Below are positions 2,803 through 20,256 of a stretch of DNA of 42,175 nt, in pieces. Each line of letters begins with the position of its first letter. The first letter of the stretch is position 1. The stretch is from Hoeflea sp. YIM 152468 (GTDB lineage Bacteria > Pseudomonadota > Alphaproteobacteria > Rhizobiales > Rhizobiaceae), in assembly GCF_029210485.1 (NCBI RefSeq), contig NZ_JARGET010000032.1:1-42175 (forward strand). The letters are read 5' to 3'. The position numbers were made by a program, and so were the translations under genes. Under the pieces are notes generated by a model. That model made no database searches. It was given only the letters and a program-made list of their open reading frames with translations, and had not been told where the DNA came from.

Positions 2803-2843
2803 CTGGGTCAGCCCCCTGGATCAGCCCCCCTGGATCAGCCCTT
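2803..2843. repeat. Three tandem copies of a 13-14 bp unit at the end of the Gfo/Idh gene
   Basis: CTGGRTCAGCCCC occurs three times in a row (2803-2815, 2816-2829, 2830-2843). On the minus strand each unit contains TGA; the innermost is the stop codon of the oxidoreductase gene. Confidence 0.7.
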
Positions 2844-4022
2844 GTTGTAGCTGGAGAACTTGACCCAGGAACCTCCCCGCCGGGACGAGTCCACGCAGGC
2901 CGTCACAAAGGCAACGCCTGCCAGCCCTTCGTCAATGCCGGGAAACAGGACGCCGTCGGGCGCGGGCTGGCCGGCACGGTGCGCAACAATTGCTTCCGCC
3001 GCCTCCGAGTAGATATTGGCAAACCCTTCCAGATAGCCTTCCGGATGGCCGCCGGGGATGCGGCTCAGGCGTTGGCCGGCAGCGGTTGCACCGGCGCCAT
3101 TTCGGGTCAGCAGCCGTTTGGGCTGCCCCAGCGGCGTGTACCAGAGATAATTCGGGTCTTCCTGGGCCCATTCCAGTCCGCCCTTTTCTCCATAAATCCG
3201 CAGCTTCAGCGCATTCTCGTTGCCCGGCGCCACCTGGGAGCACCACAACATGCCCTTGGCGCCGCCGGAAAACCGCATCAGCACATGGCCGTTGTCGTCC
3301 AGTTGCCGGCCCTCGACAAAGCTGTCGAGATCGGCGCAGAGCTGATCGAGTTCGAGGCCTGAGACGAAGCTTGCGAGGTTGAAAGCATGGGTGCCGATAT
3401 CGCCGGTCGAGCCGCCAAGGCCGGAACGCGCCGGATCAGTGCGCCATCCCGCCTGTTTCTGACCGGTCTCCTCAAGCCTTTCCGACAGCCAGTCCTGGGC
3501 ATATTCGACTTGCACCAGCCGCAAGGCGCCGAGATCGCCCTGAGCGATCATGTCGCGCGCCTGGCGTATCATCGGATAGCCGGTGTAATTGTGGGTCAGA
3601 ACGAATAGCGCGCCGGAGCCAAGGGCAACTTTCCTCAGTTTGCGCGCATCGGCAAGGGTCGAGGTCAGCGGCTTGTCGCAGATGACATGGATGCCGCGCT
3701 TGAGGAATTCGCGCGCCACCGGATAGTGCATGTGGTTGGGCGTGACGATCGCCACCGCCTCGATTCCGCTCTTCAGCCGCGCTTCCCGCCTGGCCATTTC
3801 GACATAATCGCCATAGGCGCGGTCGTCGGCCACCCCGAGATCGGCGGCAGAGGCGCTGGATTTTTCCGGCGTCGAGGAAAACGCACCAGCGACCAGTTCA
3901 TACCGGTCATCGATGCGCGATGCGATGCGGTGCACACCGCCGATGAAGGCGTCACGCCCGCCGCCAACCATGCCGAGACGGATGCGGCGCGAGGATGAGG
4001 TTTTCGAACCTTCGATTGTCAT
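2835..4022 (-). CDS. Gfo/Idh/MocA family NAD(P)-dependent oxidoreductase
   Basis: A 395-residue protein, the usual size for the family. The Rossmann nucleotide-binding loop is GMVGGGRDAFIG (17-28). CDKPLT (115-120) is the family's (E/D)KP motif carrying the catalytic lysine. The C-terminal substrate domain has GDIGTHAF with D208 and H212, the usual catalytic pair. Such enzymes oxidise a sugar or polyol hydroxyl, often to a keto sugar. GGAGG lies seven bases before the ATG. It is the last gene of the left arm, 15 bases after a TIM-barrel isomerase; this pairing is typical of keto-sugar pathways. The substrate cannot be read from the sequence. Confidence 0.9.
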   Translation of the reverse strand: MTIEGSKTSSSRRIRLGMVGGGRDAFIGGVHRIASRIDDRYELVAGAFSSTPEKSSASAADLGVADDRAYGDYVEMARREARLKSGIEAVAIVTPNHMHYPVAREFLKRGIHVICDKPLTSTLADARKLRKVALGSGALFVLTHNYTGYPMIRQARDMIAQGDLGALRLVQVEYAQDWLSERLEETGQKQAGWRTDPARSGLGGSTGDIGTHAFNLASFVSGLELDQLCADLDSFVEGRQLDDNGHVLMRFSGGAKGMLWCSQVAPGNENALKLRIYGEKGGLEWAQEDPNYLWYTPLGQPKRLLTRNGAGATAAGQRLSRIPGGHPEGYLEGFANIYSEAAEAIVAHRAGQPAPDGVLFPGIDEGLAGVAFVTACVDSSRRGGSWVKFSSYNKG

Positions 4023-4037
4023 GGGTGGTCCTCCCGT

Positions 4038-5093
4038 TCAGGAAATGCCGAGCATGCGCCGGTTGGCGGCGTCATCGGTGCCGCCATCGGCAAAATCGTC
4101 AAAGGCCCGCTCGGTAACCCGGATGATGTGGTCGGAGACAAATTGCGCCCCTTCACGGGCCCCGTCTTCGGGATGTTTCAGGCAGCACTCCCATTCGACC
4201 ACGGCCCAGCCTTCGAAATCATTGGCTGCCATCTTGGAGAATATCGCACCGAAATCCACCTGTCCGTCGCCAAGCGAGCGGAACCGTCCGGCCCGGTCCA
4301 CCCAGGGCTGGTAGCCCGAATAGACGCCCTGCCGTCCGGTCGGGTTGAACTCCGCGTCCTTGACGTGGAACATCTTGATCCGGTCCTTGTAGATGTCGAT
4401 GTTGTCGATGTAGTCGAGACACTGCAGCAAATAATGCGACGGGTCATAGAGCATGTTGCAGCGGGCATGATTGCCGACGCGGTCCAGAAACATCTCGAAC
4501 GTGGCCCCGTCATGCAGGTCTTCGCTCGGATGGATTTCGTAGCAGATGTCGACACCACAGTCGTCGGCGTGATCGAGAAGCGGCCGCCAGCGCTTGGCCA
4601 GTTCGTCAAAGGCAGTCTCGACCAGCCCGGCCGGCCGTTGCGGCCACGGATAGATATAGGGCCAGGCCAGCGCGCCGGAAAAGCTTGCCATTGCAGTAAT
4701 GCCCATATTGCGCGAGGCGGTGAGGGCCAGTCTGACCTGATTGACCGCCCATTCCTGCCGCGCCTTCGGGTTGCCGCGCACGCTCGGCGCCGCAAAGCCG
4801 TCAAAGCCCTCGTCATAGGCCGGGTGCACAGCCACAAGCTGGCCTTGCAGGTGAGTGGAGAGTTCGGTGACTTCGATCCCGTTCTCGGCCGCAACCCCCT
4901 TGAACTCGTCACAATAGTCCTTTGACGCCGCCGCTTTCTCAAGATCGATCAGGCGGCCGTCCCAGCTTGGCACCTGAACGCCCTTGTAGCCGCAGTCAGC
5001 GGCCCATTTGGTAATCGATTGCCACGTGTTGAACGGTGCCTCGTCGCCAGCAAATTGTGCCAGGAACAGGGCCGGGCCCTTGATGGTTTTCAT
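4038..5093 (-). CDS. Sugar phosphate isomerase/epimerase family TIM-barrel protein
   Basis: A 351-residue AP-endonuclease-2-like TIM barrel. The four metal ligands typical of xylose-isomerase-like sugar enzymes are visible: E186 (CYEIHP), D217 (YDPSH), H243 (FHVKDAEF) and E300 (VVEWEC). The start ATG at 5093 follows GGAGG by nine bases; a longer frame to 5198 lacks such a site. Family members isomerise, epimerise or cleave keto sugars using a divalent metal. It lies just upstream of the Gfo/Idh gene in the same direction, and the two probably act in sequence on one substrate. Confidence 0.88.
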   Translation of the reverse strand: MKTIKGPALFLAQFAGDEAPFNTWQSITKWAADCGYKGVQVPSWDGRLIDLEKAAASKDYCDEFKGVAAENGIEVTELSTHLQGQLVAVHPAYDEGFDGFAAPSVRGNPKARQEWAVNQVRLALTASRNMGITAMASFSGALAWPYIYPWPQRPAGLVETAFDELAKRWRPLLDHADDCGVDICYEIHPSEDLHDGATFEMFLDRVGNHARCNMLYDPSHYLLQCLDYIDNIDIYKDRIKMFHVKDAEFNPTGRQGVYSGYQPWVDRAGRFRSLGDGQVDFGAIFSKMAANDFEGWAVVEWECCLKHPEDGAREGAQFVSDHIIRVTERAFDDFADGGTDDAANRRMLGIS

Positions 5094-5233: not shown

Positions 5234-6079
5234 TCAATCGGCCCCGAGCGAACGCGAAATATGGGCATAGCCTTCCCGATAAACCGCCTCCGGACTTTCG
5301 GCGAAATCCCTCCATACTTTCGTCGCCGCCGCCAGGTCCGGTAATCCTCTGCCAAAACTTTCGATTGTCAGCCATCCGTCATAGCCAATTTCAGCGATGG
5401 TGGCATAGGTCTTTTGCCACGGAATGTTTCCACGACCGGGAACGCCCCGATCATTTTCCGAAATATGGATATGTGCGACGCTGTCGGCATTGCGTCGCAA
5501 GGCGCCGATCGGGTCGGTTTCTTCGATGTTGGCGTGAAACGTGTCATACATTGCGCGGATGTTGGGATGCGCAATCTCCGCCAGATGTGAAGCAAGCCCG
5601 TCCATGGTGTTGAGCAGATAGCATTCAAAGCGGTTGAGCGCCTCCAGCGCCACGGTAATGCCCAAGCTTGCCGCATGGTCGCCGATCTGGCGCTGCGCCA
5701 CCACCGAGTTGGCAAATTCTTCAGCGGTAGGGCCCTGGCCGCTGAAATGTCCCAGCGTCGAATGCAGCGGACCGCAGATCAGCGTGGCGCCGAGCGCATG
5801 CGACCTGTCGAGCGTGGCGCGCATGCAGTCAAGACCACGCGCGCGCGCCGCAGCATCGCCGATCAGGTTCATCGACGCGTCACCCATCGCTGCAACCGCC
5901 GTCCGTTCCAGCCCGATATCGTCAAGCAGAAGCGCCAACTCCCTGTAGTGGGCCACATCGCCCTCGAAAACCGGGATCTCCACCCCGTCAAAGCCGGTTG
6001 CCTTGATGTCGCGCAGCAACGCCTCGTGGTCGCGGCCGACATGGGTGGTCCACAGGAACATGTTCATTCCGATCTTCAT
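5234..6079 (-). CDS. D-tagatose/D-psicose 3-epimerase-like TIM-barrel protein
   Basis: A 281-residue TIM-barrel protein. Putative metal ligands are E146 (ALEALNRFE), D179 (MYDTFHANIEE), H205 (HIHISENDRG) and E240 (TIESFG). Their spacing of 33, 26 and 35 residues is the same as I recall for D-tagatose 3-epimerase, and LNRFE and DTFHxNIEE are signatures of that subfamily, so a C3 epimerase of a ketose or keto-sugar acid is the best guess. It is the first gene of the left arm, with a TGGTNNNACCA operator at 6101-6111 directly upstream. A 140-base gap separates it from the next gene; no second promoter is evident there. Confidence 0.88.
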   Translation of the reverse strand: MKIGMNMFLWTTHVGRDHEALLRDIKATGFDGVEIPVFEGDVAHYRELALLLDDIGLERTAVAAMGDASMNLIGDAAARARGLDCMRATLDRSHALGATLICGPLHSTLGHFSGQGPTAEEFANSVVAQRQIGDHAASLGITVALEALNRFECYLLNTMDGLASHLAEIAHPNIRAMYDTFHANIEETDPIGALRRNADSVAHIHISENDRGVPGRGNIPWQKTYATIAEIGYDGWLTIESFGRGLPDLAAATKVWRDFAESPEAVYREGYAHISRSLGAD

Positions 6080-6100
6080 GGGCCCTCCAGTCGCTCAATC

Positions 6101-6111
6101 TGGTAATACCA
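6101..6111. promoter_or_regulatory. GntR/FadR-type operator 1, TGGTAATACCA
   Basis: An 11-bp palindrome TGGT-AAT-ACCA, 22 bases before the start of the minus-strand epimerase operon. It fits the TNGTNNNACNA pattern known for FadR-subfamily GntR regulators, one of which is encoded at 8424. The same palindrome recurs at 6240, 16279 and 16444. Confidence 0.75.
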
Positions 6112-6239: not shown

Positions 6240-6250
6240 TGGTCTAACCA
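6240..6250. promoter_or_regulatory. GntR/FadR-type operator 2, TGGTCTAACCA
   Basis: Palindrome TGGT-CTA-ACCA, 60 bases before the plus-strand epimerase-dehydratase-regulator operon. Because that operon contains the GntR gene, this site would make the regulator control itself. Confidence 0.75.
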
Positions 6251-6309
6251 GAACGATGAATTGCAACGCGCAGCGGGGTTGAGAGGTTCCGCTGCAAGGG
6301 AGGATGATC

Positions 6310-7197
6310 ATGCACCTGTCGACCCATAACTGGATGCGCGCCGAGCCGCTCGAAGTCACGCTTCGCCGGATCAAGCAATTTGGCTACGAAAGCATAGAGA
6401 TTTCGGGCGAGCCGACGCAGTACGACACCAAGGAAACGCGTGCGCTTCTCAAGGAGCACGGCATCCGCTGCTGGGGGGCAGTGACGCTGACGCTGGGCGA
6501 GCGCAATCTTGCCGCCAAGGATGAGGGGCAGCGCGCCCGGACCGTCGATTACGTCAAGAGCGTGCTGACCATGGTCTCGGAACTGGAAGGCGAGGTGATC
6601 ACGCTGGTGCCGGCCACGGTCGGCAAGGTGCAGCCTGACGCCACCGAGGAAGAGGAATGGGCCTGGCTGGTCGAGGCAACAAAGGAGTGCTTTGCCCATT
6701 CCCAGAAAGTCGGCGTCAAGATCGGCATCGAACCGCTCAACCGGTTCGAGACCTATATCTTCAACCGTGCCGCCCAGGCGCTGGCGCTGGCCGATGCGGT
6801 GCACCCCGATTGCGGCGTATGCCTCGACGCCTACCACCTCAACATGGAGGAATCCGACATCTACGAGGCCATCCGGCTGGCCGGCAAACGGCTGTTCGAC
6901 TTCCATGTTGCCGACAACAATCGATTTGCTGCAGGGCTGGGCCACCTCAACTGGCCCAAGATAGTCGAAACCCTCAAGGAGATCGGCTATGACGGCGCGT
7001 TGACCAACGAATTCGTTGCGCCTGTCGACCGCACGCCTGCGGCGATCTATCCCGACATGGTTGAGCGCGAACCCGTTGATATCTCGCCCGAGCAGCTGAA
7101 GTTCATCCAGGATCACGGATCAAGCCTGCTGACCGAAAAGTTCTATTCGGACCAGATGCGGATCACGGCGGAAACGCTGCTGCCCCTGATCAAGTAA
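6310..7197 (+). CDS. D-tagatose 3-epimerase-like TIM-barrel protein (second copy)
   Basis: A 295-residue sugar isomerase/epimerase with ligands E141 (GIEPLNRFE), D173 (CLDAYHLNMEE), H199 (DFHVADNNR) and E234 (TNEFVA). The LNRFE motif and ligand spacing place it beside the product of 5234-6079, but the two are clearly different in sequence, so they probably act on different intermediates. The ATG at 6310 is chosen because GGGAGG lies six bases upstream; the in-frame ATG at 6304 touches that site. It opens the plus-strand operon after operator 2. Confidence 0.87.
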   Translation: MHLSTHNWMRAEPLEVTLRRIKQFGYESIEISGEPTQYDTKETRALLKEHGIRCWGAVTLTLGERNLAAKDEGQRARTVDYVKSVLTMVSELEGEVITLVPATVGKVQPDATEEEEWAWLVEATKECFAHSQKVGVKIGIEPLNRFETYIFNRAAQALALADAVHPDCGVCLDAYHLNMEESDIYEAIRLAGKRLFDFHVADNNRFAAGLGHLNWPKIVETLKEIGYDGALTNEFVAPVDRTPAAIYPDMVEREPVDISPEQLKFIQDHGSSLLTEKFYSDQMRITAETLLPLIK

Positions 7198-7257: not shown

Positions 7258-8427
7258 ATGAAAATCAAATCCGTCCACGCCAGGTGGATTCAGATCCCGA
7301 TCGAACAAGCGCGGCAACACACTAGCGATTTCGGCACGTTGCGGACGTTCGACGCCGCCATACTGCGGATCGAGACAAATGACGGCCTGGTTGGCTGGGG
7401 AGAGGGAAAGAACGCTGCCGGCAGCGCGGGAAACTATGCAACGCTGGTGCGGCTGATCAATGAGGATTTCGGGCCGCGCCTCGTCGGGCGCGATCCGGCG
7501 GATATCACCTTCATCTGGGAAGAGCTGTACAACGGCGTCCGCGCCCAAAAGGCCGCCGGCGCCGGGCACGCGATGCCCGAAATGGCGCGGCGCGGGCTGA
7601 CTGTCGCGGCGATCAGTGCCATCGACATTGCGCTGTGGGATATTCTCGGCAAGGCCGAGGGCAAACCGGTCTGGAAGCTTCTGGGCGGGCGCAAATCCGA
7701 CCGTATGCAGGCCTATGCCTCGGGCGGTTGGGCAAGTGCCGACAAGATCGGCGAACAGTTGCAATCCTATATCGACACCGGCGGCTTCCACGCAGTGAAG
7801 ATGCGGGTCGGCGCCATGGATCCGACCCCGCACGCGTCAGCACTGCGGGTTAAGGCTGCCCGCAAGGCGCTGGGGCCGGACATCGAACTGGCTGTCGATG
7901 CACACGGCACCTATACGGTGGCGACGGCGCGGCGGTTCGCCCAGCTTGTCGCCGATTGTGATCTGGCCTGGTTCGAGGAGCCGATCATCGCTGACGACAA
8001 GGCCGGAATTGCGGAAGTGCGCGCCGCAGTCTCCATCCCCGTTGCCACCGGCGAAAGCGAGGCCACGCGGTTTGCCTTTCGCGACCTCGCGGTGCTGCGC
8101 GCAGCCGACATCTTCCAGCCGGACCCGGCCTTCTGCGGCGGAATTTCCGAAGCCATGCGCATCGGCACCATTGCCGCAGCGTTCAATCTGAGATTGGCGC
8201 CGCATTTGTGGGCGGGCGCGCCGTGCTTTTTTGCCGGCCTGCATGTCTGTGCCGCGTCGCCGGCCAGTTTCACGGTGGAGTTTTCCCTTGGTGCGAATCC
8301 GATGATACATGATATCATTGAGGACACAGTCGAAGTACGGGACGGGATGATCGAATTCCCGGACAAGCCCGGCCTCGGCTTCACCATGAACGAAGCCATC
8401 CTGCAGAAATACACAAAATTCCCATGA
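7258..8427 (+). CDS. Mandelate racemase/muconate lactonizing enzyme family protein (probable sugar acid dehydratase)
   Basis: A 389-residue enolase-superfamily enzyme. The capping domain covers about 1-125 and the barrel follows. KMR (181-183) occupies the KxK position, with metal ligands D214 (VDAHG), E240 (WFEEP) and E266 (ATGESE), D289 (QPDP), and H316 (APHLWAG) with E341 at the end of the barrel. The D/H pair suggests the mandelate racemase subgroup, which contains acid-sugar dehydratases. The second lysine of KxK is arginine here, which favours dehydration over racemisation, but that is inference. It follows the epimerase by 60 bases and overlaps the GntR gene by four bases (ATGA). Confidence 0.88.
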   Translation: MKIKSVHARWIQIPIEQARQHTSDFGTLRTFDAAILRIETNDGLVGWGEGKNAAGSAGNYATLVRLINEDFGPRLVGRDPADITFIWEELYNGVRAQKAAGAGHAMPEMARRGLTVAAISAIDIALWDILGKAEGKPVWKLLGGRKSDRMQAYASGGWASADKIGEQLQSYIDTGGFHAVKMRVGAMDPTPHASALRVKAARKALGPDIELAVDAHGTYTVATARRFAQLVADCDLAWFEEPIIADDKAGIAEVRAAVSIPVATGESEATRFAFRDLAVLRAADIFQPDPAFCGGISEAMRIGTIAAAFNLRLAPHLWAGAPCFFAGLHVCAASPASFTVEFSLGANPMIHDIIEDTVEVRDGMIEFPDKPGLGFTMNEAILQKYTKFP

Positions 8428-9155
8428 GCAGATCCGAAAACGAATTTCTCCCCGATCTGGTGGCTTACATTGTCAAAACGGCAAGGGCGAGCGGCGACAA
8501 GGCGCCATCGGAACGCGAGCTTGCCGAGCATTTTTCCGTCAGCCGTGGTCAGGTGCGTGAATCGCTGGCGATCCTGGAAGCCCAGCACCTGATTGAGCGG
8601 CGGGCCAAGTCCGGCATCTATCTGACCATGGACGCTGCCGGATTGAGCTCGATGGCGCTGCTGGCCCGCGCCGGTGTGCAGCTCAAACCCCGTCAGATTT
8701 TCGAGGCCGTCGAGCTGCGCAAGATCCACGAGATCAAGGCCGCCGAACTGGCGGCGCAACGCGCCACCGCGGAAAACCTGGACCGGCTGCGCGACATTCT
8801 CGCCCGCTCGGAGACGCAGATCGCCGACGGGCTCGGACTTCAGCGGCTCGATGGTGAATTTCATCTCGAAATCGTCCGGGCCACCCAGAACGAGATGTTT
8901 TACAAGATCTGTTCGAGCTTTTATGCCGCCAGCGAGCAGCGAATGCCGATCTATTTCGGCAAGCCCGAGCGCAACATCAAGTCGCACACCGAGCACCAGC
9001 AGATATTCGACGCCCTGTATCGCCGTGACAGCATTCTGGCGCAGGCGCTGATGAACACGCATCTGGGCCGCGCGCAAAGCTACTGGACCGAAATTCTCGA
9101 TGGCAACGGTGAGCAGGCGCCCGACGAGGCGGAGCTGCTGCCGGTTCATATCTGA
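8424..9155 (+). CDS. FadR/GntR family transcriptional regulator with FCD domain
   Basis: A 243-residue regulator. The winged helix-turn-helix (about 8-68) has APSERELAEHFSVSRGQVRE and the wing IERRAKSGIYL. The FCD effector domain (about 92-225) has the metal-binding residues D143 and H147 (LDGEFHLEI), H191 and H213. FCD regulators of this kind are usually released from DNA by a sugar acid or other carboxylate. It is translationally coupled to the upstream enzyme gene (ATGA overlap). Four TGGTNNNACCA palindromes, one before each surrounding operon, are its probable binding sites, making it the local repressor or activator of the whole 2835-20256 locus. Confidence 0.93.
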   Translation: MSRSENEFLPDLVAYIVKTARASGDKAPSERELAEHFSVSRGQVRESLAILEAQHLIERRAKSGIYLTMDAAGLSSMALLARAGVQLKPRQIFEAVELRKIHEIKAAELAAQRATAENLDRLRDILARSETQIADGLGLQRLDGEFHLEIVRATQNEMFYKICSSFYAASEQRMPIYFGKPERNIKSHTEHQQIFDALYRRDSILAQALMNTHLGRAQSYWTEILDGNGEQAPDEAELLPVHI

Positions 9156-9184
9156 ACCTTCCGATAGAGCCTGGAGCCGATCCC

Positions 9185-10159
9185 ATGTCTGACAAGATCT
9201 TCTCCACCCATCCGCTTCACCCCAAGGTAACCGCTGAATTGCAGAGCCTCGGAAAGCTGGTTGTCGCCAGCGCGCCGACGGCTGAAGCGATCGTGGCAGA
9301 AAGCGCCGATGCCTCGATAATTGTGGTGCGTGCCCCGATTCCGCCGGAAATTTTCGCCACGCAGCCACGGCTCCGGGCGGCGGTCCGGCATGGGGCAGGG
9401 CTCGATATGATCCCGCTGGATGCGGCCTCGGCCGCCGGCGTGCTGGTGGCCAATGTGCCCGGCGTCAACGCGGTCACGGTGGCCGAGCACTGCATCTGGT
9501 CGGCGCTGGCATTGCTCAGGCGCTATCCCGCCGTCAGGACCGACCTGCGTGCAGCCGGCTGGGCTGTGGCCCGGTCACACTCCGATCATGGCCGCGAGCT
9601 CAGCGGCCGCAGCCTCGGCATCATCGGCATGGGCAATGTCGGCCAGGCGCTGTTCAGGATCGCCCATTTCGGCTTCGGCATGAAGGTGCTCGCGGTCACC
9701 AGCAGGCCCGAGGCGCTGGCAGAAGGCGCCCGCGCCGCAACCTTGCAGCAAGTGCTGTCACAAAGCGATGTCGTCGTGCTTGCCTGTCCGCTCACCGCGA
9801 AGACCCGTGGCCTGATCGGTCCTGCCGAGCTTGCCCGGATGCAGCCGGGCTCCATTCTGGTCAACGTCGCCCGCGGACCGGTGGTCGATGAGGCGGCGCT
9901 GGTTGAGGCACTGCGGTCGGGCGCGATGGGTGGCGCTGTGCTCGATGTCTTCGATGAACAACCGCTGCCTCATTCCCACCCGTATCTGTCGATGCGCAAC
10001 GTCATCCTGACGCCGCACATGGCCGGCATCACCGAGGAAAGCATGTTGCGGATGGGGCAGGGGGTGGTTGGCGAGACCCGGCGCATTCTGGCTGGAGACA
10101 AGCCGCTCAACTTCTGCAATCCGGATGCGTGGACGCGCTATCAAGCCAGATTTGTCTGA
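9185..10159 (+). CDS. D-isomer specific 2-hydroxyacid dehydrogenase
   Basis: A 324-residue NAD(P)-dependent dehydrogenase related to phosphoglycerate dehydrogenase. The Rossmann motif is GMGNVG (148-153). The catalytic triad is R230 (NVARGP), E258 (FDEQP) and H278 (TPHMAG). It should interconvert a 2-hydroxy acid and a 2-keto acid. It lies 29 bases after the GntR gene and ends the plus-strand operon. In the pathway it could reduce or form a 2-keto sugar acid produced by the enolase-family enzyme. The substrate is unknown. Confidence 0.92.
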   Translation: MSDKIFSTHPLHPKVTAELQSLGKLVVASAPTAEAIVAESADASIIVVRAPIPPEIFATQPRLRAAVRHGAGLDMIPLDAASAAGVLVANVPGVNAVTVAEHCIWSALALLRRYPAVRTDLRAAGWAVARSHSDHGRELSGRSLGIIGMGNVGQALFRIAHFGFGMKVLAVTSRPEALAEGARAATLQQVLSQSDVVVLACPLTAKTRGLIGPAELARMQPGSILVNVARGPVVDEAALVEALRSGAMGGAVLDVFDEQPLPHSHPYLSMRNVILTPHMAGITEESMLRMGQGVVGETRRILAGDKPLNFCNPDAWTRYQARFV

Positions 10160-10434: not shown

Positions 10435-11505
10435 TTATCCCAGCCCCAGATTGCGCCCCGTTGCCGGATCGAATGAGGAGACCTTTTCCGGCTTCCAGGT
10501 GAACCGCACGGTCTCGTCGATCTTGACCTTCGTCTGCGCCGACACGGTGGCGTGCAGCTGCGTCCCGTCGACGTCAAGTGTCAGGATCTTGATCACGCCG
10601 TGGTTCTCGATATCGAACACACGACCGGCCGCTTCGCCGGCTTCATCGAGCACCACGTCTTCCGCTCTGATGCCGAAGCGGATCCGGGCGCCGTCCGTGC
10701 CATGCCGGCAGGCCAGGGGCAGGGCGAACCTGCCGGCATCGAGTATTGCCGTGTCGGCCGCAAGGGTGCCGTCAAGAAGGTTCATCGGCGGGGTGCCGAC
10801 CGATCGGGCCACGAATGTGTTGAGCGGCCTGGCGTAAATCTCCGAAGGGGTGCCGACCTGGACCAGCTTGCCCCTGTTGAGAACACCGATCTTGTCGCCC
10901 ATCGACATCGCCTCGACCTGGTCATGGGTGACGAACACGAAAGTCGCGCCCAATTCGCTGTGCAGTTTCTTCAGTTCAACCCGCAGCACATCGCGCAGAT
11001 TGGCATCGAGCGCCGACAGCGGCTCGTCCATCAGGAACACCCGCGGCTGGCGGACAATCGCCCGGCCGATCGACACGCGCTGCATCTCCCCGCCCGACAG
11101 CCGTTCAACCTTGCGGTCGAGCAGCCGGGTGATCTGCAGGGTTTCGGCGACGCGGTCGACGCGCTCCCGGATTTCGGCCGCGGTAAGATTGTGTGTCCGC
11201 GATTTCAGCGGAAATTCGAGATTGCCGCGCACCGTCATACGCGGGTAGAGCGAGTATTGTTGCAAAACCAGCGCCACGTCGCGTTCGGCGGCATTCCAGT
11301 TTGTCGCATCCTGCCCGTCGATCATCACCTTGCCCGAATTGGGAACTTCCAGCCCGGCGATCACCCGCAAGGTGGTTGTCTTTCCGGCCCCGGTCTGACC
11401 CAGCAGCACGAAGAACTCGCCGTTCTTGATGTCGAGATCAAGTTCGCGCAATGCCGTGTTGGCGCCGAATTTCTTGGTAACGCGCTGCAATGCGATGTCA
11501 GCCAT
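10435..11505 (-). CDS. Sugar ABC transporter ATP-binding protein (second ATPase)
   Basis: A 356-residue CUT1-type (UgpC/MalK-like) ATPase. Walker A is GQTGAGKT (36-43), the signature LSGGE (136-140) and Walker B VFLMDE (156-161), followed by a C-terminal OB-fold (TOBE) region from about 240. All catalytic elements are intact. Its ATG overlaps the stop of the preceding ATPase gene by one base (TGATG), so it is co-translated as the last gene of the operon. It differs well beyond the motifs from the neighbouring ATPase, so the transporter probably uses a heterodimeric ATPase pair. Confidence 0.93.
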   Translation of the reverse strand: MADIALQRVTKKFGANTALRELDLDIKNGEFFVLLGQTGAGKTTTLRVIAGLEVPNSGKVMIDGQDATNWNAAERDVALVLQQYSLYPRMTVRGNLEFPLKSRTHNLTAAEIRERVDRVAETLQITRLLDRKVERLSGGEMQRVSIGRAIVRQPRVFLMDEPLSALDANLRDVLRVELKKLHSELGATFVFVTHDQVEAMSMGDKIGVLNRGKLVQVGTPSEIYARPLNTFVARSVGTPPMNLLDGTLAADTAILDAGRFALPLACRHGTDGARIRFGIRAEDVVLDEAGEAAGRVFDIENHGVIKILTLDVDGTQLHATVSAQTKVKIDETVRFTWKPEKVSSFDPATGRNLGLG

Positions 11506-12593: not shown

Positions 12594-12865
12594 CAGTTGG
12601 TCCCCGCGATGCCGGAGCCGTTGTTGTCGGACGGGGTGTTGATGTCCAGCACATCGAGGGATTCGTCGACGAAGTCCTCTTCCTGCTCTGGATCGGGCGC
12701 GATTTTCGAGGTGACCATGAAGGCCACCAGCCCGATCAGCGTCAGCGTGACCCCGTACTGATGCAGGATCAGGCTCCAGGGCTGGCAAAGCGAAACAATG
12801 CCGAAGATCATCAGGCTTTGCGCTGCCGGTGCAAGAATGCGTTGGTTGGTGCTGCGAAAACTCAT
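12593..12865 (-). CDS. Small two-helix membrane protein of the ABC operon
   Basis: A 90-residue protein: short N-terminus, two hydrophobic segments (about 13-32 and 36-52), then an acidic tail from PDPEQEEDFVDESLDVLD onward. It overlaps the permease gene by ATGA and the ATPase gene by three bases at its stop, so translation of all three is tightly coupled. Rhizobial CUT1 operons with two ATPases often carry such a small membrane protein (for example glpU of the glycerol transporter), but its role is not established. It may be an accessory subunit. No other family was recognised. Confidence 0.8.
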   Translation of the reverse strand: MSFRSTNQRILAPAAQSLMIFGIVSLCQPWSLILHQYGVTLTLIGLVAFMVTSKIAPDPEQEEDFVDESLDVLDINTPSDNNGSGIAGTN

Positions 12866-13824
12866 TTGCGGATCGCTCCGAAGGACATGCCGCGCAGCAG
12901 ATGGTTGCGCAGAAGGAAGGTGAAGATTGCCACCGGAATCAGGAAGAGCAATGTACCCGCGGCGATCACGGTCCAGTCCGGCAGGCCGCTGCCGACCTGC
13001 GACGGAATATAGGGCGGCGCAGTCTGGGCATTGCGGTTGGTCATGATCAGCGCGAAGGCATATTCGTTCCAGGCGGTGATGAAACAAAACACCGCCGTCG
13101 CCGCCATGCCGGTCAGCGCCTCGGGCAACACCACCTTGAAGAAAGCCTGCATCCGCGTGTAGCCGTCGACCAGCGCCGCTTCCTCGTATTCACGCGGGAT
13201 CTCGTCAATGAAGCCTTTCATGATCCACACCGCGAAACTCAGATTGAAGGCGGTGTAGAGGATGATCAGCCCCAGATGGGTGTCGTTGAGGCCGACGACG
13301 CGGTACATCAGGAACATCGGGATCGCCACGACGACCGGCGGCAGCATGCGGGTCGACAGGATGAAAAACAGCCAGTCGTCTTCGCCGGCCACCTTGAACC
13401 GGCTGAACCCGTAGGCCGTCAGCGTCCCCATCGACACCGCCAATATGGTCGAGATGATCGAGATGATCAGCGAGTTGGTGAACCGGTCGCCATAGCCCGA
13501 AGTTCTGACCTCGCCGGTCTTGCCGTTGCGCACCACCTTCTCGCCGCCGTCAAACACCATCCGTTCCCACCAGGGTGCGGCGGCATATTCTTCCGCCGTC
13601 GGCTGGTCCCGCAATTGCGAGCGCTTGGTAAACAGTTTGACGAACGGCGAAACGGTGGGCTGGAACACCACTGTGGGCGGGATCGTGGTCGCCAGATTGC
13701 GGGGTTTGAACGATGTCGCCGCGATCCAGTAGATCGGCGTCAACATGATGGCGAGGGCGACGAACACGGCGACAATTGCCACCCGGTTCGTCCATTTCTC
13801 CTGGGGAGTGCGAACACCGGCCAT
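12862..13824 (-). CDS. Sugar ABC transporter permease (MalG-like)
   Basis: A 320-residue inner-membrane permease with about six helices and the cytoplasmic EAA loop IPREYEEAALVDGYTR in the second half, which docks on the ATPase. There is a large periplasmic segment between the first and second helices (about 45-115), longer than in many CUT1 permeases. The start lies one base after the stop of the other permease gene. It forms the translocation pore together with the product of 13826-14731. Confidence 0.93.
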   Translation of the reverse strand: MAGVRTPQEKWTNRVAIVAVFVALAIMLTPIYWIAATSFKPRNLATTIPPTVVFQPTVSPFVKLFTKRSQLRDQPTAEEYAAAPWWERMVFDGGEKVVRNGKTGEVRTSGYGDRFTNSLIISIISTILAVSMGTLTAYGFSRFKVAGEDDWLFFILSTRMLPPVVVAIPMFLMYRVVGLNDTHLGLIILYTAFNLSFAVWIMKGFIDEIPREYEEAALVDGYTRMQAFFKVVLPEALTGMAATAVFCFITAWNEYAFALIMTNRNAQTAPPYIPSQVGSGLPDWTVIAAGTLLFLIPVAIFTFLLRNHLLRGMSFGAIRK

Positions 13825-13825: not shown

Positions 13826-14731
13826 TCAGCGCGCCTTCACTTTGTTGAGGTATTTGACGTAGATATTGGTAATCGCCACCACCATGATCAGCACGATGTA
13901 GGCGAACGCCGAAGACATCCCGGTCTGCCATTCCTGAAATGCCATCTTGTAAAGCCGGATCGCGATCAGTTCGGTCGTCGGCTGTGACGACAGCACATAG
14001 GCGAGGTCAAAGGTCTTGAATGCTTCCATTGTGCGGAAGATGATGGCGATCATCAGGATCGGCGCCACCAGCGGCAGGGTGATGCGGAAGAAGGTGTAAA
14101 GGCCCGATGCACGGTCAATCTCGGCGGCTTCGTACAGATGCTTTGGCACGGCGGAGAGACCGGCAAGGGACAGCAGCATCACAAACGGCGCCCACATCCA
14201 GATATCGACGATGGCGATGGCGTAGAGCGCCATATCCGGATCGGCCAGCCATTCGAACTTTTCCAGCCCGAGAAAATAATTGATGATGCCGAAGTTCGGA
14301 TCGTAGAGCAATTTCCAGAACAGCCCGACAACCGCCATCGACAGCATCATCGGCAGCAGCAGCAAGGTTGTGATCAGCCCCTTGGCCGGAATCGCGCGGT
14401 TGAGCAGCATCGCCAGCCCGAAACCGACAAGCACCTGGCCGGTGACCGAAATCAGCACATATTTCGCGGTGATCGAAAAATTGCTCCAGATGAACGGGTC
14501 GCTGAGCAGATCCCGGTAATTCTGCAGGCCGACAAAATTTGCCGGCGCCCTGGTTGAGGCCCTGAAATCGGTGAATGAATAGGCCAGCGAATACAGCAAC
14601 GGAAAGATGTTGAAGATGATCAGAAACGCAATTGTCGGGATGATGAACAGGTTGCGAATGGTCAGGTCGCTCAGCCCTTTCGCGGCGGCGCGCGATTTCG
14701 GGTCAAGATTGGTCATGACTTGGGACGCCAC
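13826..14731 (-). CDS. Sugar ABC transporter permease (MalF-like)
   Basis: A 301-residue permease with six predicted helices and the EAA loop VPKHLYEAAEIDRASG. The start is GTG at 14731, preceded by AAGGAAG with seven-base spacing; an ATG at 14716 has no ribosome binding site. It follows the binding-protein gene after an 80-base gap that contains a strong hairpin, which probably lowers its expression relative to the binding protein. Confidence 0.92.
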   Translation of the reverse strand: MASQVMTNLDPKSRAAAKGLSDLTIRNLFIIPTIAFLIIFNIFPLLYSLAYSFTDFRASTRAPANFVGLQNYRDLLSDPFIWSNFSITAKYVLISVTGQVLVGFGLAMLLNRAIPAKGLITTLLLLPMMLSMAVVGLFWKLLYDPNFGIINYFLGLEKFEWLADPDMALYAIAIVDIWMWAPFVMLLSLAGLSAVPKHLYEAAEIDRASGLYTFFRITLPLVAPILMIAIIFRTMEAFKTFDLAYVLSSQPTTELIAIRLYKMAFQEWQTGMSSAFAYIVLIMVVAITNIYVKYLNKVKAR

Positions 14732-14766
14732 GGGAAAACTTCCTTGCGCTTCGACAGTCTGGGGAA

Positions 14767-14784
14767 GGGGCGCCGCAGCGCCCC
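14767..14784 (-). terminator. Intra-operon hairpin between binding protein and permease genes
   Basis: A perfect 7-bp GC stem (14767-14773/14778-14784) with a tetraloop and no T tract. Such hairpins after binding-protein genes usually protect the upstream mRNA and reduce read-through, giving excess binding protein. Confidence 0.55.
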
Positions 14785-14811
14785 TGGTTATGTCTTGGTG
14801 ATTGCCCGGAC

Positions 14812-16122
14812 CTACTGGCCGCGACCGTATTTCTTGAAGGTCGCTTCCCAGTCGGATGCCAGCGCATCAAGCGTTTCCTTGGCCGTGCCTTCATTGCCGA
14901 CGATGAACGGATACAGCCGCTGGTTGGCAGCGGTCAGCAATTCGGCAAATTCCGGTACAGCCCAGAAATCCTTGACCTTGAACATGGTCTGGTAGAACGC
15001 CTCATTGTATGGCGTCGCCTTGCGGAATTCCTCCGATTGCAGCACGGCGGCACTGGCGGTGTAGCCGCCAAGTTCAGCCCAGCGTTTCTGGGTTTCGTCC
15101 TTGATGAACCACTCGAGGAACTTCATCGATTCTTCCTGGTAGTCGGAATAGCTGACGATGGAGATTCCCTGCCCGCCAAGCGCTGCGAACTGGTCGCCAT
15201 CCGGTCCTGCCGGGTTGGCGAAGAAGCCGGTATTTGCAGCATGCGGGTTGGAGGCCTCGTTCAAGAGCGCCGGGAAGAAGGCGAAGTAGTTCATCGACAT
15301 GGCCACCAGGCCCTCGGTGATCGCCTGGTTGTTTTCAACAAAGAAGGTCTTGGCCCAGCCTGGAGGCGTGTAGCTGTAGAGCTTCTTGTAGTTTTCCAGG
15401 GCAGCGACTGCCTTGTCGCTGTTGACGTAGCCGTCAACTTCGTAGGTTTCGAAATTGCCGAGTTCCGCCCCATAAGAGAAGATCGCGTTCTCCACGCCCA
15501 TCACCATCGCGTCATAGGAATTGTCGGTGTAGATGGCGATGCCGTAGCGGTTTTCGTCAGGGCGGTGAAAAAACTCGGCTATGTCGGTGAGTTGCTTCCA
15601 GTCGGCCGGCGGCGCCAGATCATAGCCATATTTTTCCTTGAAGGCCGCCATTTCGGCGGGGTCTTCGAACCAGTCCTTGCGATAGGACCAGCCCACCGCA
15701 TCGCCTTCGGCCGGAACAGCCCAGAACTTGCCGGAATTGCCCGGATATTCGGCGTAGTATTTCACAGTCGCCGGCGCCATCACTTCGCCGAGATTGTGCT
15801 TGTTGAAAAACTCGGTCAGGTCGACATAGTGGCCACCCTCGGACGCCGCGCCGAGCCACTGGCTGTCGCCGACGATCATGTCATAGGCGGACCCGCGAGC
15901 ATTGAACTCGGTGAAGGCTTTGGTCTGGAAATCCGACCAGGGCGTGGTTTCCACCGTTACCGTGACGCCGGTTTCGGCCTCGTATTCATTGACAAGTTCC
16001 TGAAGATAATTGGCCGGATCCCATTCCGCCCAGAAGATCGTCAATTCCTGCGCATAGGCCGAAGTGCCGCTTGCCAGGGCAAGGGCCAGTCCTCCGGCGA
16101 TTCCGATGAGTGTGTTGCGCAT
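14812..16122 (-). CDS. Sugar ABC transporter substrate-binding protein
   Basis: A 436-residue extracellular solute-binding protein of the MalE/UgpB (family 1) type. The Sec signal peptide MRNTLIGIAGGLALALASG ends near AYAQ (about residue 25). The mature start, LTIFWAEWDPANYLQELVNE, is typical of the family. Many aromatic residues occur in the cleft region (for example GDSQWL and AEYPG), as expected for a sugar. The ATG at 16122 is chosen because GGAGG lies eight bases upstream; an earlier in-frame ATG at 16146 is less likely. It is the first gene of the transporter operon, under operator 3. Confidence 0.94.
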   Translation of the reverse strand: MRNTLIGIAGGLALALASGTSAYAQELTIFWAEWDPANYLQELVNEYEAETGVTVTVETTPWSDFQTKAFTEFNARGSAYDMIVGDSQWLGAASEGGHYVDLTEFFNKHNLGEVMAPATVKYYAEYPGNSGKFWAVPAEGDAVGWSYRKDWFEDPAEMAAFKEKYGYDLAPPADWKQLTDIAEFFHRPDENRYGIAIYTDNSYDAMVMGVENAIFSYGAELGNFETYEVDGYVNSDKAVAALENYKKLYSYTPPGWAKTFFVENNQAITEGLVAMSMNYFAFFPALLNEASNPHAANTGFFANPAGPDGDQFAALGGQGISIVSYSDYQEESMKFLEWFIKDETQKRWAELGGYTASAAVLQSEEFRKATPYNEAFYQTMFKVKDFWAVPEFAELLTAANQRLYPFIVGNEGTAKETLDALASDWEATFKKYGRGQ

Positions 16123-16278: not shown

Positions 16279-16289
16279 TGGTATTACCA
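16279..16289. promoter_or_regulatory. GntR/FadR-type operator 3, TGGTATTACCA
   Basis: Palindrome TGGT-ATT-ACCA, about 157 bases before the binding-protein gene. Its core and flanks mirror operator 1: with the adjacent bases both read TTGGTATTACCA or its complement. Confidence 0.75.
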
Positions 16290-16443: not shown

Positions 16444-16454
16444 TGGTCAGACCA
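16444..16454. promoter_or_regulatory. GntR/FadR-type operator 4, TGGTCAGACCA
   Basis: Palindrome TGGT-CAG-ACCA, 107 bases before the Tm-1-like gene, ties the right-hand operon to the same regulator. Confidence 0.7.
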
Positions 16455-16560: not shown

Positions 16561-17772
16561 ATGGATTTGCCGGAGGACAATCTAGACCGGGTCTATGTGG
16601 TCGGCACCGCTGACACCAAGGGGTCCGAACTCGCCCATCTGGCCCGTTTGATCGGCGACACCGGGGCGCCGGTGTGTCGGGTCGACGTGGGAACGCGCGC
16701 GCCTGAAATCGAGGTGGATATCAGCGCTGCTGAGGTGGCTGCCCATCATCCCGACGGCGCCGGCGCGGTGTTTGCGGGAGACGACCGGGGCCCGGCTGTC
16801 AGCGCCATGGCTGCCGCGTTCTCGCGGTTTGTCGCCAGCCGTTCGGATATTGCCGGGGTGATCGGCATTGGCGGCGGCGGCGGAACTTCGATCATCACCG
16901 CCGGCATGCGCCGTCTGCCCTATGGATTGCCCAAGATCATGGTGTCGACACTGGCCTCGGGCGATGTCGCCCCCTATGTCGATATTTCCGACATCATCAT
17001 GATGCCCTCCGTCACCGACTTTGCCGGGCTCAACCAGCTCAGCCGCATGATCCTGCACAATGCAGCCCGGGCCATGGCCGGCATGGTGGGAACACCCTAC
17101 CGTGAAACCGGCAAGCAGCGATCCATCGGCCTGACGATGTTCGGCGTCACCACGCAAGGCGTGAGCTCGACCATCGGGCATCTCAAGGACACCTATGACT
17201 GCATGGTGTTTCATGCCACCGGCACCGGCGGGCGGACAATGGAAAAGCTGGTCGCTGACGGCGTGCTTTCCGGCGTGCTCGATCTTACCACCACCGAAGT
17301 CTGCGATCTGCTTCTGGGAGGTGTCTTGCCCGCGTCAGCAGACAGATTCGGCGCGATAGCGCGCTCCGGCGTGCCTTATGTCGGTTCGGTCGGCGCCCTC
17401 GACATGGTCAATTTCTGGGCGCCGGACACCGTGCCGAAAATCTTTGACGGGCGGCGTTTCTACCACCACAATTCCAACGTCACCCTGATGCGCACGACCC
17501 CGGACGAGTGCCGCTTGATTGGCGAATGGATAGGCCGCAAGCTGAGCGCCTGCAAGGGCCCTGTCCGGTTTCTCATTCCCGAAAAGGGCGTTTCCGCGCT
17601 CGACATCAAGGGCGGCGCGTTTTTCGATCCGGAAGCCGATGAAGCGCTGTTTCGCGCCATCGAATCCGCCTTCGTGCCTTCCGCCGGGCGGCGTATCGAG
17701 CGCCTGCCGTTGCACATCAATGACGCTGGCTTTGCCAAGGCCGCCGCCGACGCCTTCTTGTCCATCATCTGA
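16561..17772 (+). CDS. Tm-1-like ATP-binding domain protein (UPF0261)
   Basis: A 403-residue protein, full length for UPF0261. The start [13 protein letters not shown] (12-24), the glycine loop GIGGGGGTS (102-110), the segment [17 protein letters not shown] and the central [20 protein letters not shown] are family signatures. The plant resistance protein Tm-1 has this domain fused to a TIM barrel; here the two are separate adjacent genes. ATP binding is known for Tm-1, but the bacterial reaction is not. GGGAGGAG directly touches the ATG; an in-frame TTG at 16567 would have better spacing and could be the true start. It opens the operon under operator 4. Confidence 0.92.
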
Positions 17773-17782
17773 AGGAGCCCCC

Positions 17783-18631
17783 ATGCCTGCCATCCCACGC
17801 AAGCAAATTCTCAGTCGTCTCAACGCCATGGTTGATGAAGGTGTACCCATCATCGGCGGCGGCGCCGGCACCGGACTGTCGGCCAAGGCGGAAGAAGCCG
17901 GTGGAATTGACCTGATCATCATCTACAATTCCGGTCGCTACCGCATGGCTGGCCGCGGCTCCGCAGCAGGGCTTCTCGCCTATGGCAACGCCAACGAGAT
18001 CGTTAAGGAGATGGCAGTGGAAGTTCTGCCCGTGGTGCGCAGCACGCCGGTGCTGGCCGGCGTCAACGGCACCGATCCTTTCATCCTGATGCCGCAGTTC
18101 CTGGCCGAGCTCAAAACCATGGGGTTCTCCGGCGTGCAGAATTTTCCCACCATCGGCCTGTTTGACGGCGCCATGCGCCAGAGCTTCGAGGAAACCGGCA
18201 TGGGCTATGGTCTCGAGGTCGACATGATCGCGGCCGCGCACGCGCTGGATCTGTTGACCACGCCTTATGTCTTCACTCCGCAGGAAGCCCAGGCCATGTG
18301 CCGCGCCGGCGCCGACATCATCGTTGCACATATGGGCGTGACCACTGGCGGCAGCATTGGCGCGACTTCCGCCAGAAGCCTCGACGACTGCGTCGGCCGG
18401 ATTGACGCCATAGCCGCCGCAGCCCGCGCGATCCGCAACGACATTATCGTGCTGTGTCACGGTGGTCCTGTCTCCATGCCCGACGATGCCGCCTACATTC
18501 TGTCGCGCTGCAATGGCTGCCATGGGTTCTACGGGGCAAGTTCGGCGGAGCGTCTGCCCGCCGAAACGGCGATCCGGGACCAGATTCGAGCCTTCAAAAC
18601 CTTGCCAAACCTGAAAGGAAACCAAGCATGA
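17783..18631 (+). CDS. Phosphoenolpyruvate hydrolase-like TIM-barrel protein
   Basis: A 282-residue protein of the PEP-hydrolase-like family (the C-terminal half of plant Tm-1). Family features visible are [20 protein letters not shown] near residues 21-40, [13 protein letters not shown], and [18 protein letters not shown] precedes ATG 17783, ten bases after the Tm-1-like stop; a longer frame starting at 17639 lies within that gene. Its enzyme activity is not established in the family. The fixed pairing with UPF0261 implies that the two proteins form one complex or catalyse consecutive steps. Confidence 0.9.
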
Positions 18632-19041
18632 GCGAGACATTTTTCGTCTATCCCGAAGCGGTGGACCGGTTCGCCTTCGATTGGGGCCACCTGACCCTGA
18701 CCTGCGGTCCCTCGGTCAATGCAGCCGGCAGGTTTTCGGCCGGAGTGGTTCATGTTCCGCCCGGCCGCGGTCATGCCCGCCACAATCATCCCGGCGCCGA
18801 AGAGATCATCTATGTGCTCGAAGGCAGCGGCGATCAGATGATCGAGGACAAGGATGGCAACCCGGTCACCGAACAGGTCCGCGCCGGCTGCACCATCTTT
18901 GTGCCCGAAAGCCGTTTTCACGCGACGCTCAACACCGGCGAGCAGCCGATGAAGCTGTTTGTTGTCTACAGCCCCGTGGGACCGGAGGAGGTGCTGCGCC
19001 AGCTTCCTGATTTCCGTCTTGTCCCCCCGCCACACGCCTGA
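18628..19041 (+). CDS. Cupin domain protein
   Basis: A 137-residue single-domain cupin. Metal ligands are H52 and H54 (RHNHPG), E58 or E59 ([10 protein letters not shown]) and H98 (RFHATLN), so both cupin motifs are intact. The ATG overlaps the preceding stop (ATGA), with AAAGGAA upstream. Small cupins in sugar operons are usually isomerases, lyases or sensors of sugar acids. The exact role cannot be read. Confidence 0.9.
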
Positions 19042-19056
19042 TCAAGGGAGCCAACC

Positions 19057-20256
19057 ATGCTGCATGATTACCCGCCATTGCACGCGGCCTCGGCCAAGGA
19101 CCTGCCTTACCGTTTCGAGGATCTCGACGCGTCCATGGAGGCCGCCGGTCTCGATGCGATTGTGGCGACGTCCAAGCACAATGTCCGCTATTTGCTTGGC
19201 GGCTATCAGTTCATTTTCTTCTCCGCCATGGATGCCATCGGCCAAAGCCGGTATTTGCCGGCCTTCGTCTATATTCGCGGCGAGTCCGGCAAGACCTGCT
19301 ATCTCGCCAACAAGATGGAGGGGCATGAACACTCGGTGATGCCGTTCTGGGTGCCTCAGTTCAGGCCCGATCACTGGGGCTCGGTCGACACCATGCAGGC
19401 GGCAGCAGACCATCTGCAGAAATGCGGCGTCGCCAGCGGCCGGATCGGCTTTGAACCGGGATTTATGCCCAAGGACGGTTTTGATGCCATCGCCGACGCC
19501 CTGCCACAGGCGCGTTTCGCGGACGCCAGCATGGTGCTGACGCGGCTCAGAATGATCAAGACCAAGCCGGAACTGGACCTGTTGCGCGAGGCAACCGCAC
19601 GGATCAGCGCATCGATGCAGGCGACAATTCAGGCCGCCGGCGAGGGCACCTCAAAATTCGCGATCATCGAACGGTTGCGTCAGGAGGAGACCAGGCGGGA
19701 ACTGGCGTTCGAGTATTGCCTTCTCACCCTGGGGAACAGCCACAACCGCGCCGGCTCGAGCCAGACCTGGAAGAGAGGCGAGGTGATGTCGATTGATTCC
19801 GGCGGCAATCTGCACGGCTATATCGGCGATATCTGCCGCATGGGCGTGCTTGGCGAACCGGACGCGGAACTGTCCGATCTCCTCGCCGAGGTCGAAGCCG
19901 TGCAGCAGGCTGCCTTCGGAGAAATCGCTCCGGGAAAAACCGGCGCGGAGATGATCGCAGCCGGCGAAGCCGAGCTGAGACGCGGCCCGAATTCGGCGCA
20001 TAATGATTTCTTTGCCCACGGCATGGGGCTGATCAGTCACGAGGCGCCATTCCTGATGACCAATCATCCCGTCGCCTATGAGGGCATCGATGCCGGCACG
20101 CCCTTCCAGCCAGGCATGGTGCTGTCTGTGGAAACCACGATGCAGCACCCGACGCGCGGCTATATCAAGCTTGAGGACACGGTTATCCTGACCAAAGACG
20201 GCCACGAGGTGTTCGGCGCCGCTGACCGCGGCTGGATCGTCAGGGATGTGGGGTGA
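19057..20256 (+). CDS. M24 family metallopeptidase-like hydrolase (Xaa-Pro dipeptidase fold)
   Basis: A 399-residue protein with a creatinase-type N-terminal domain (about 1-170) and a pita-bread C-terminal domain. All five metal ligands of active M24 enzymes are present: D247 (SIDSGG), D258 (GDICR), H321 (FAHGMG), E359 (SVETT) and E373 (KLEDT), plus H328. GGGAG precedes the ATG. It is the last gene of the Tm-1 operon. In this setting it may hydrolyse an amide or C-N bond in the substrate, as creatinase does, rather than act on peptides. This is inference from context. Confidence 0.9.
   Translation: MLHDYPPLHAASAKDLPYRFEDLDASMEAAGLDAIVATSKHNVRYLLGGYQFIFFSAMDAIGQSRYLPAFVYIRGESGKTCYLANKMEGHEHSVMPFWVPQFRPDHWGSVDTMQAAADHLQKCGVASGRIGFEPGFMPKDGFDAIADALPQARFADASMVLTRLRMIKTKPELDLLREATARISASMQATIQAAGEGTSKFAIIERLRQEETRRELAFEYCLLTLGNSHNRAGSSQTWKRGEVMSIDSGGNLHGYIGDICRMGVLGEPDAELSDLLAEVEAVQQAAFGEIAPGKTGAEMIAAGEAELRRGPNSAHNDFFAHGMGLISHEAPFLMTNHPVAYEGIDAGTPFQPGMVLSVETTMQHPTRGYIKLEDTVILTKDGHEVFGAADRGWIVRDVG

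Follow-up and report, generated by a model that had tools for sequence, protein, structure and literature searches.

Introduction

GntR regulators of the FadR subfamily share the binding consensus TNGTNNNACNA (Rigali 2002, cited in PMC2230225). In Agrobacterium tumefaciens, an operon encodes GlycDH, the eliminase AtOGE, the hydratase AtHYD, whose role is called preliminary, and a Gfo reductase (PMC10628242); in plants, a Tm-1-like protein consists of UPF0261 fused to a TIM-barrel domain (PMC5028733). Here, we describe a gene cluster of Hoeflea sp. YIM 152468 (Rhizobiales; Rhizobiaceae) that contains a FadR-type GntR gene, a homolog of such a hydratase and a UPF0261 gene. The cluster spans positions 2835 to 20256 of a 42,175-nt stretch (assembly GCF_029210485.1, contig NZ_JARGET010000032.1, positions 1 to 42,175 of the forward strand), hereafter, the window. 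Judged from sequence, we give a probability of about 0.6 to the reading that this cluster is a FadR-type GntR regulon serving to take up and degrade a small polyhydroxy compound.

Gene content and predicted operators

The cluster comprises the following genes:

2835..4022, minus strand: GFO, Gfo/Idh/MocA oxidoreductase, probable 3-keto-sugar reductase or dehydrogenase (Pfam; best PDB match 3v5n, E 2.2e-191)
4038..5093, minus strand: IOLE, IolE-like TIM barrel, 2-hydroxy-3-keto-glucal hydratase homolog (PDB 8ro4, residues 1-350)
5234..6079, minus strand: EPI1, xylose-isomerase-like TIM barrel of the ketose 3-epimerase type (Pfam; NCBIfam below cut-offs; E-D-H-E residues)
6304..7197, plus strand: EPI2, xylose-isomerase-like TIM barrel (Pfam, NCBIfam; 72-98% identity across the listed loci)
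7258..8427, plus strand: ENO, enolase superfamily, acid-sugar dehydratase or cycloisomerase type (Pfam, NCBIfam)
8424..9155, plus strand: GntR regulator, FadR-type, with GntR helix-turn-helix and FCD domains (Pfam)
9185..10159, plus strand: HADH, D-2-hydroxyacid dehydrogenase (Pfam, NCBIfam)
10435..11505, minus strand: ATP1, ATP-binding cassette (ABC) ATPase 1 (domain scan)
11505..12593, minus strand: ATP2, ABC ATPase 2 (domain scan)
12593..12865, minus strand: DUFM, 90 aa, without a Pfam match (transporter operon; in 36/50 loci)
12862..13824, minus strand: PER2, ABC permease 2 (domain scan)
13826..14731, minus strand: PER1, ABC permease 1 (domain scan)
14812..16122, minus strand: SBP, extracellular solute-binding protein (domain scan)
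16561..17772, plus strand: UPF0261, Tm-1 N-terminal domain homolog (Pfam; PDB 3wry, E 1.9e-90)
17783..18631, plus strand: PEPH, phosphoenolpyruvate-hydrolase-like TIM barrel (Pfam; PDB 2p10, E 2.6e-124)
18628..19041, plus strand: cupin (Pfam)
19057..20256, plus strand: M24 metallohydrolase (domain scan; D-D-H-E-E ligand pattern present)

By Pfam and NCBIfam scans, these genes are arranged as GFO-IOLE-EPI1 (leftward, EPI1 first), EPI2-ENO-GntR-HADH (rightward), SBP-PER1-PER2-DUFM-ATP2-ATP1 (leftward) and UPF0261-PEPH-cupin-M24 (rightward). A first-pass annotation of the same DNA had counted 14 structural genes; the count is 16 plus one regulator, the 90-aa DUFM included. The same annotation had placed a FadR-type GntR gene in the middle of the cluster, and its product indeed carries both expected domains above cut-off (PF00392, 46.9 bits; PF07729, 83.9 bits). 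Among the NCBIfam matches listed, UPF0261 alone passes the cut-offs, with ‘hypothetical protein’ models. The motif residues that we looked for in ENO, HADH, GntR-FCD, M24 and the ketose epimerases are presumed ones; thus, D-D-H-E-E is what we take to be the M24 metal-ligand pattern.

The palindrome TGGTNNNACCA occurs exactly four times in the window, at the starts that had been reported for it. The predicted operators are listed below, with distances to start codons derived from the coordinates:

6101..6111, no strand: predicted GntR operator, 21 bp before EPI1 (relatives have sites at the same promoter)
6240..6250, no strand: predicted GntR operator, 53 bp before EPI2 (relatives have sites at the same promoter)
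16279..16289, no strand: predicted GntR operator, 156 bp before SBP (site before SBP in 31/31 SBP loci)
16444..16454, no strand: predicted GntR operator op2, 321 bp before SBP, similar in relatives, and 106 bp before UPF0261 (TetR lost)

In 100 dinucleotide shuffles of the window, TGGTNNNACCA had a mean count of 0.37, and none of the shuffles (0/100) reached four. The looser TNGTNNNACNA, seen five times against 3.5 expected, is not significant alone because 28/100 shuffles contained at least as many. A longer palindrome, approximately ATY-TGGT-NNN-ACCA-RWT, is common to the operator sites. An Rfam scan of the window at gathering cut-offs returned no match.

Across the genome (4.27 Mb, 40 contigs), there are 38 TGGTNNNACCA sites, compared with 113 for the reversed control pattern, and 15 sites of the stricter YTGGTNNNACCAR, compared with 28 for its control, 4 of the 15 being inside the window. 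Ten of the remaining 11 lie within long open reading frames; the other falls at the junction of two genes of a different contig that read as rsmE and gshA (names from translations read by eye). Additional regulon members elsewhere in the genome are not supported by the 11 YTGGTNNNACCAR sites checked, a check that did not extend one by one to the other 23 of the 38 TGGTNNNACCA sites.

Conservation of the genes and operators in relatives

Searching with the GntR protein at an E-value threshold of 1e-50, and counting this genome, we found homologs in 11/397 genomes of the order and 83/394 genomes of the family (33/109 genera), whereas a class-wide draw gave 1/385, that is, this genome alone. Plasmid records with the cluster GntR gene number 122, and all but two (120) are from Sinorhizobium or Rhizobium. 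Given these family-level and plasmid counts, the cluster represents an uncharacterized catabolic trait that is common in Rhizobiaceae.

For comparison, we assembled 50 loci: the 10 other matches from the order, 35 of the 82 other matches from the family (about one per genus) and five named loci (L007, L011, L064, L110 and L112), leaving out the close kin L008 and L111 and dropping, before the final count, the duplicates L010 and L050, which come from the same genomes as L155 and L160. These 50 distinct loci (1,015,967 bases) contain 151 operator sites, against 9.0 at the rate of this genome, and 147 of the 151 are located at most 450 bp before SBP, EPI2, the operon opposite EPI2 or an inverted M24. 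Sites were present before SBP in 31/31 loci, before the operon opposite EPI2 in 42/42 and before EPI2 in 48/49, where a single site may score for two promoters because these are divergent; the lone EPI2 miss, L187, is a contig starting within EPI2. The four sites outside cluster promoters are in L104 (next to an M24 gene truncated where the stretch ends), L162 (in PER1), L161 and L174. In the EPI1/EPI2 region of Sinorhizobium meliloti 1021 and Rhizobium johnstonii 3841, one exact site is accompanied by one or two with one mismatch, and L108 and L109, from other families, have a different transporter and yet carry two sites in the divergent region.

EPI2, ENO, GntR and HADH are all present in 49/50 loci, a count in which the 49 were selected by GntR and the 50th stretch ends short of these genes. 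Recurrence of the gene set in other genomes, proposed as a check in the first-pass annotation, was thus found together with the operators. Gene content, operators and their conservation are direct observations, and this footprinting by cross-genome comparison makes a GntR regulon around the cluster a well supported prediction. It could still be argued that the palindromes arose by chance or belong to another regulator and that the operons are unrelated neighbors, as the lack of enrichment of TNGTNNNACNA alone would allow. With four sites against 0.37 expected, and 151 sites in 50 loci that travel with the GntR gene, we consider this explanation highly improbable as a whole, and we reject a chance origin on the grounds of the shuffles and the promoter placement across the 50 loci; to binding of the sites by another regulator, on which sequence by itself is less decisive, we leave a small weight.

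The orientation of M24 offers a further view of the operators. Where M24 is inverted, it has its own operator 24-164 bp upstream (8/8 loci); where it runs in the same direction as its operon, it has none (0/15). A tree of EPI2, ENO and GntR needs only two changes of M24 orientation, so that the pattern amounts to about two independent events, not eight.

L064, from Lentibacter (Rhodobacterales), also carries the cluster and groups among the Rhizobiaceae rows of the tree, on a long branch and in an unsure position, suggesting horizontal transfer of the cluster.

Probable rewiring of the UPF0261 operon

Of the 29 loci with SBP and UPF0261 in the stretch, 27 (27/28 with L160 left out) have a TetR-type gene between the two, divergent from UPF0261 in every case; the L007 copy (14265-14903) has a Pfam TetR_N match. 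L159 and L160, the sister rows without this gene, appear to have lost it separately from the genome studied here. Before UPF0261, 29 of the 44 loci scanned have TTGACG...TGAGAC-N22-GTCTCA with TATGAT inside, at no more than three mismatches, many of the non-matching stretches stopping before the UPF0261 promoter. This TetR-like operator is not in four loci where UPF0261 has another context (L113, L114, L115 and L118).

In the tree, this genome groups most closely with L153-L155 of the same genus (100/100 support), and all three have both the TetR gene and the operator. In this genome, neither was found, which is again a direct observation: the TetR gene gave 0 matches, in a search run without a positive-control genome but with a protein that finds the relatives by tblastn, and TGAGAC-N22-GTCTCA gave 0 matches at up to three mismatches. 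In the relatives, a second GntR site on the SBP side is present in 21/29 loci, 312-336 bp from SBP in 18 of the 21 and at 216, 347 or 364 bp in the others. Op2 is at a matching distance; the site therefore seems to have stayed in place while UPF0261 moved to it.

UPF0261-PEPH-cupin would then usually be under non-GntR control and is predicted to have reached a GntR site in this genome by deletion, its membership in the regulon here being, as the comparison indicates, a local rewiring. This gives a case of regulon rewiring in which the TetR gene and operator are absent and the operon now lies beside a standing GntR site. The first-pass annotation had assigned one operator to every operon and joined all operons into a single regulon. 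The first of these statements is true in this genome, but for the UPF0261 operon only via the deletion of the TetR region; the second gains from the joint recurrence of genes and operators, but loses from the position of the UPF0261 operon behind a TetR gene in most relatives.

The same observations can be read as two adjacent control systems, with GntR acting on EPI/ENO/HADH/IOLE/GFO, the transporter and M24, and UPF0261-PEPH-cupin forming a TetR module, perhaps for detoxification or salvage, that has lost its regulator here and is now constitutive or silent. The divergent TetR gene, the operator over the TTGACG/TATGAT promoter and the failure to find either in this genome all fit such an arrangement, as does a Serratia plasmid on which UPF0261-PEPH stands apart from the cluster and adjoins a TetR gene. 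Against it, UPF0261 adjoins the transporter in 25/35 stretches (the others end early or differ in arrangement), the inverted M24, normally the last gene of the UPF0261 operon, bears GntR sites, and op2 is close to UPF0261 in this genome. On balance, we find two separate systems unlikely.

A candidate catabolic pathway

Under the single GntR regulon that we favor, the GntR dimer would most likely bind TGGTNNNACCA before each operon and repress it, until repression was relieved by a carboxylate of the pathway bound in the FCD pocket. The ABC transporter would import the compound, IOLE would hydrate a 2-hydroxy-3-keto-glycal and GFO would reduce a 3-keto sugar, as in the non-hydrolytic glucoside route; EPI1 and EPI2 would epimerize keto intermediates, ENO and HADH would process the acid half, and UPF0261, using ATP, and PEPH would probably effect a late cleavage. 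We infer GntR binding and repression, every reaction beyond the enzyme family and the kind of substrate, which would be a glycoside or a keto-sugar acid.

The link to the glucoside route comes from IOLE, which aligns from end to end with PDB 8ro4 (2-hydroxy-3-keto-glucal hydratase) at an E-value of 5.5e-182 and has a single match in this genome at E 1e-15. We take 8ro4 to be AtHYD. GFO adjoins IOLE, and its candidate role as 3-keto-glucose reductase comes from its sequence family; the nearest solved relative, 3v5n, is labelled merely ‘oxidoreductase’. The 2024 paper for 8ro4 and AtHYD is cited within PMC13273386. IOLE and GFO are found anywhere in the stretch in 31/50 and 30/50 loci, respectively, with GFO counted above 45% identity and the divergent L108 and L109 copies included.

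EPI1 and EPI2 both retain Glu-Asp-His-Glu, presumably the ketose 3-epimerase pattern. We ruled out either protein as the known eliminase AtOGE, given a Glu at the corresponding strand (by eye) and no equivalent there of His132-x-His134.

Of the four parts of the glucoside route, the hydratase and Gfo thus appear to be present by homology, and no counterpart of the remaining two was found. The first-pass annotation had stated that the enzyme set matches no nameable pathway: this is too strong for IOLE and GFO but stands to the extent that the dehydrogenase and eliminase parts were not found, for which reason we do not assign the cluster to the glucoside pathway.

Several observations weigh against a glucoside-type regulon as outlined above. 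The eliminase His-x-His is missing in EPI1 and EPI2, the rest of the genome not having been searched for an eliminase, and a PF13618 protein, which we take to be the twin-arginine translocation (TAT) protein that forms the small subunit of the flavin dehydrogenase GlycDH, is not in the genome (2/14 control genomes match), in a search that did not extend to the GlycDH large subunit. The operon opposite EPI2 holds IOLE in only 29/49 loci and GFO in 27/49. IOLE is present in all 25 genomes tested, including 13 that lack GntR, and since every one of these 13 controls has it, its presence in a genome is uninformative on the pathway; for the same reason, we rejected as evidence the finding of IOLE elsewhere in the genomes without a clustered IOLE (12/12). 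On the regulatory side, the UPF0261 operon is preceded by a TetR gene in the great majority of loci, and M24 was inverted only about twice, so that few independent events stand behind the M24 pattern.

A sugar-acid or keto-aldonate pathway without a glycoside step is a tentative alternative, to which we give appreciable weight. EPI1, EPI2, HADH and ENO would interconvert and dehydrate a keto-aldonate, PEPH would cleave it, and IOLE and GFO would have been recruited for a relative that is cyclic or inositol-like. The best NCBIfam match of EPI2 is indeed 5-keto-L-gluconate epimerase, HADH has hits to models of phosphoglycerate dehydrogenase and of glyoxylate/hydroxypyruvate reductase, all of these being below cut-off, and the clusters of R. 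johnstonii and S. meliloti are without IOLE and GFO. The location of IOLE and GFO downstream of a GntR site, in the operon facing EPI2, in the loci counted above argues against this alternative, and because this location recurs in more than one gene order, it suggests a real link.

The IOLE-GFO pair also occurs with LacI genes, FGGY or Dak (Dak1/Dak2) kinases and other sugar transporters in L026 and L061, and with a PfkB-type kinase and UPF0261 in L018 and L082 (Pfam on the L082 kinase).

UPF0261 and PEPH

The most interesting part of the cluster is the UPF0261/PEPH pair, with PF06792 and PF23189 (UPF0261 N and C) and PF09370 (PEP_hydrolase) above cut-off. The UPF0261 proteins carry the record name ‘Tm-1-like ATP-binding’, and we take the C-terminal domain of plant Tm-1 to belong to the PEPH family. 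The two genes are adjacent in 9/10 annotated loci viewed, four of these being the present cluster, whereas a Salinibacter locus has PEPH without an adjoining UPF0261. On R. johnstonii pRL9 and in Qingshengfaniella, the genes that accompany UPF0261/PEPH include a cupin, a Gfo/Idh gene and those of a carbohydrate ABC transporter. The Serratia plasmid (L115) is conjugative, and the rest of the cluster is missing from the stretch shown.

In the open-licence literature searched, including PMC5028733 and PMC6867892, we found no enzyme function for proteins named UPF0261, Tm-1-like ATP-binding or phosphoenolpyruvate hydrolase. The first-pass annotation had also stated that the enzyme set lacks a kinase or aldolase; this absence is uncertain, given the ATP-binding record name of UPF0261 and the TIM-barrel fold of PEPH, a protein for which we found no reaction. 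Conceivably, although we think it doubtful, UPF0261 and PEPH catalyze an undescribed ATP-dependent step of keto-sugar-acid breakdown, combining activation with carbon-carbon cleavage, which would supply the ‘kinase and aldolase’ of the pathway. If so, this step would also hint at what plant Tm-1 does by ancestry. The pair, for which we found no reported reaction, is now placed in a testable metabolic setting.

Other features of the window

Positions 270-2007 hold divergent response-regulator-like and sigma-factor-like genes that resemble the PhyR/EcfG general stress pair (translations read by eye). At 36302-36343, GTGGTGAT is repeated 5.2 times without error, and from 41639 to the end of the window at 42175, a 39-bp unit is repeated in tandem (13.8 copies, 92% matches), open in frame.

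Comparison with known systems

Orthologous clusters are found on S. meliloti pSymA (approximately SMa1329-SMa1354, mapped from length and order) and R. johnstonii 3841 pRL12 (RL_RS35830-RS35905). They share EPI1|EPI2-ENO-GntR-HADH, six ABC genes, UPF0261-PEPH-cupin-M24 and the kind of operator with the Hoeflea cluster, but lack IOLE/GFO in the cluster and have a TetR gene before UPF0261. The S. meliloti UPF0261 gene, which we take to be SMa1334 (398 aa) by matching length, has been disrupted, with normal symbiosis and no nodule expression (PMC3462710). Two further genes have been tabulated, SMa1353 (‘D-tagatose 3-epimerase’) among acid-stress proteins (PMC4941405) and SMa1354 (‘isomerase’) in a PhaR study (PMC12542648), and the pRL12 reports cover neighboring genes (PMC3333776, PMC1557990, PMC7105596). 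Neither a regulon description nor a substrate was found in the open-licence literature, a search that excluded subscription papers, supplements and regulon databases.

The GlycDH-AtOGE-AtHYD-Gfo operon of A. tumefaciens (PMC10628242) likewise sets an AtHYD-type hydratase beside a Gfo oxidoreductase, but the Hoeflea cluster differs in having no PF13618 protein, no AtOGE-type His-x-His in EPI1/EPI2 and several added acid-sugar enzymes. As in the plant Tm-1-like protein, a UPF0261 domain, recognized by sequence, has a TIM-barrel partner, here encoded by an adjacent gene; unlike in plants, the two are separate bacterial proteins in a catabolic setting. Finally, the cluster resembles FadR-subfamily regulons in its GntR+FCD protein and the matching palindromes in its promoters, and departs from them in its gene set, for which the literature searched holds no description. 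We regard it as a real, conserved and uncharacterized GntR catabolic regulon of an otherwise ordinary type, with a local rewiring.

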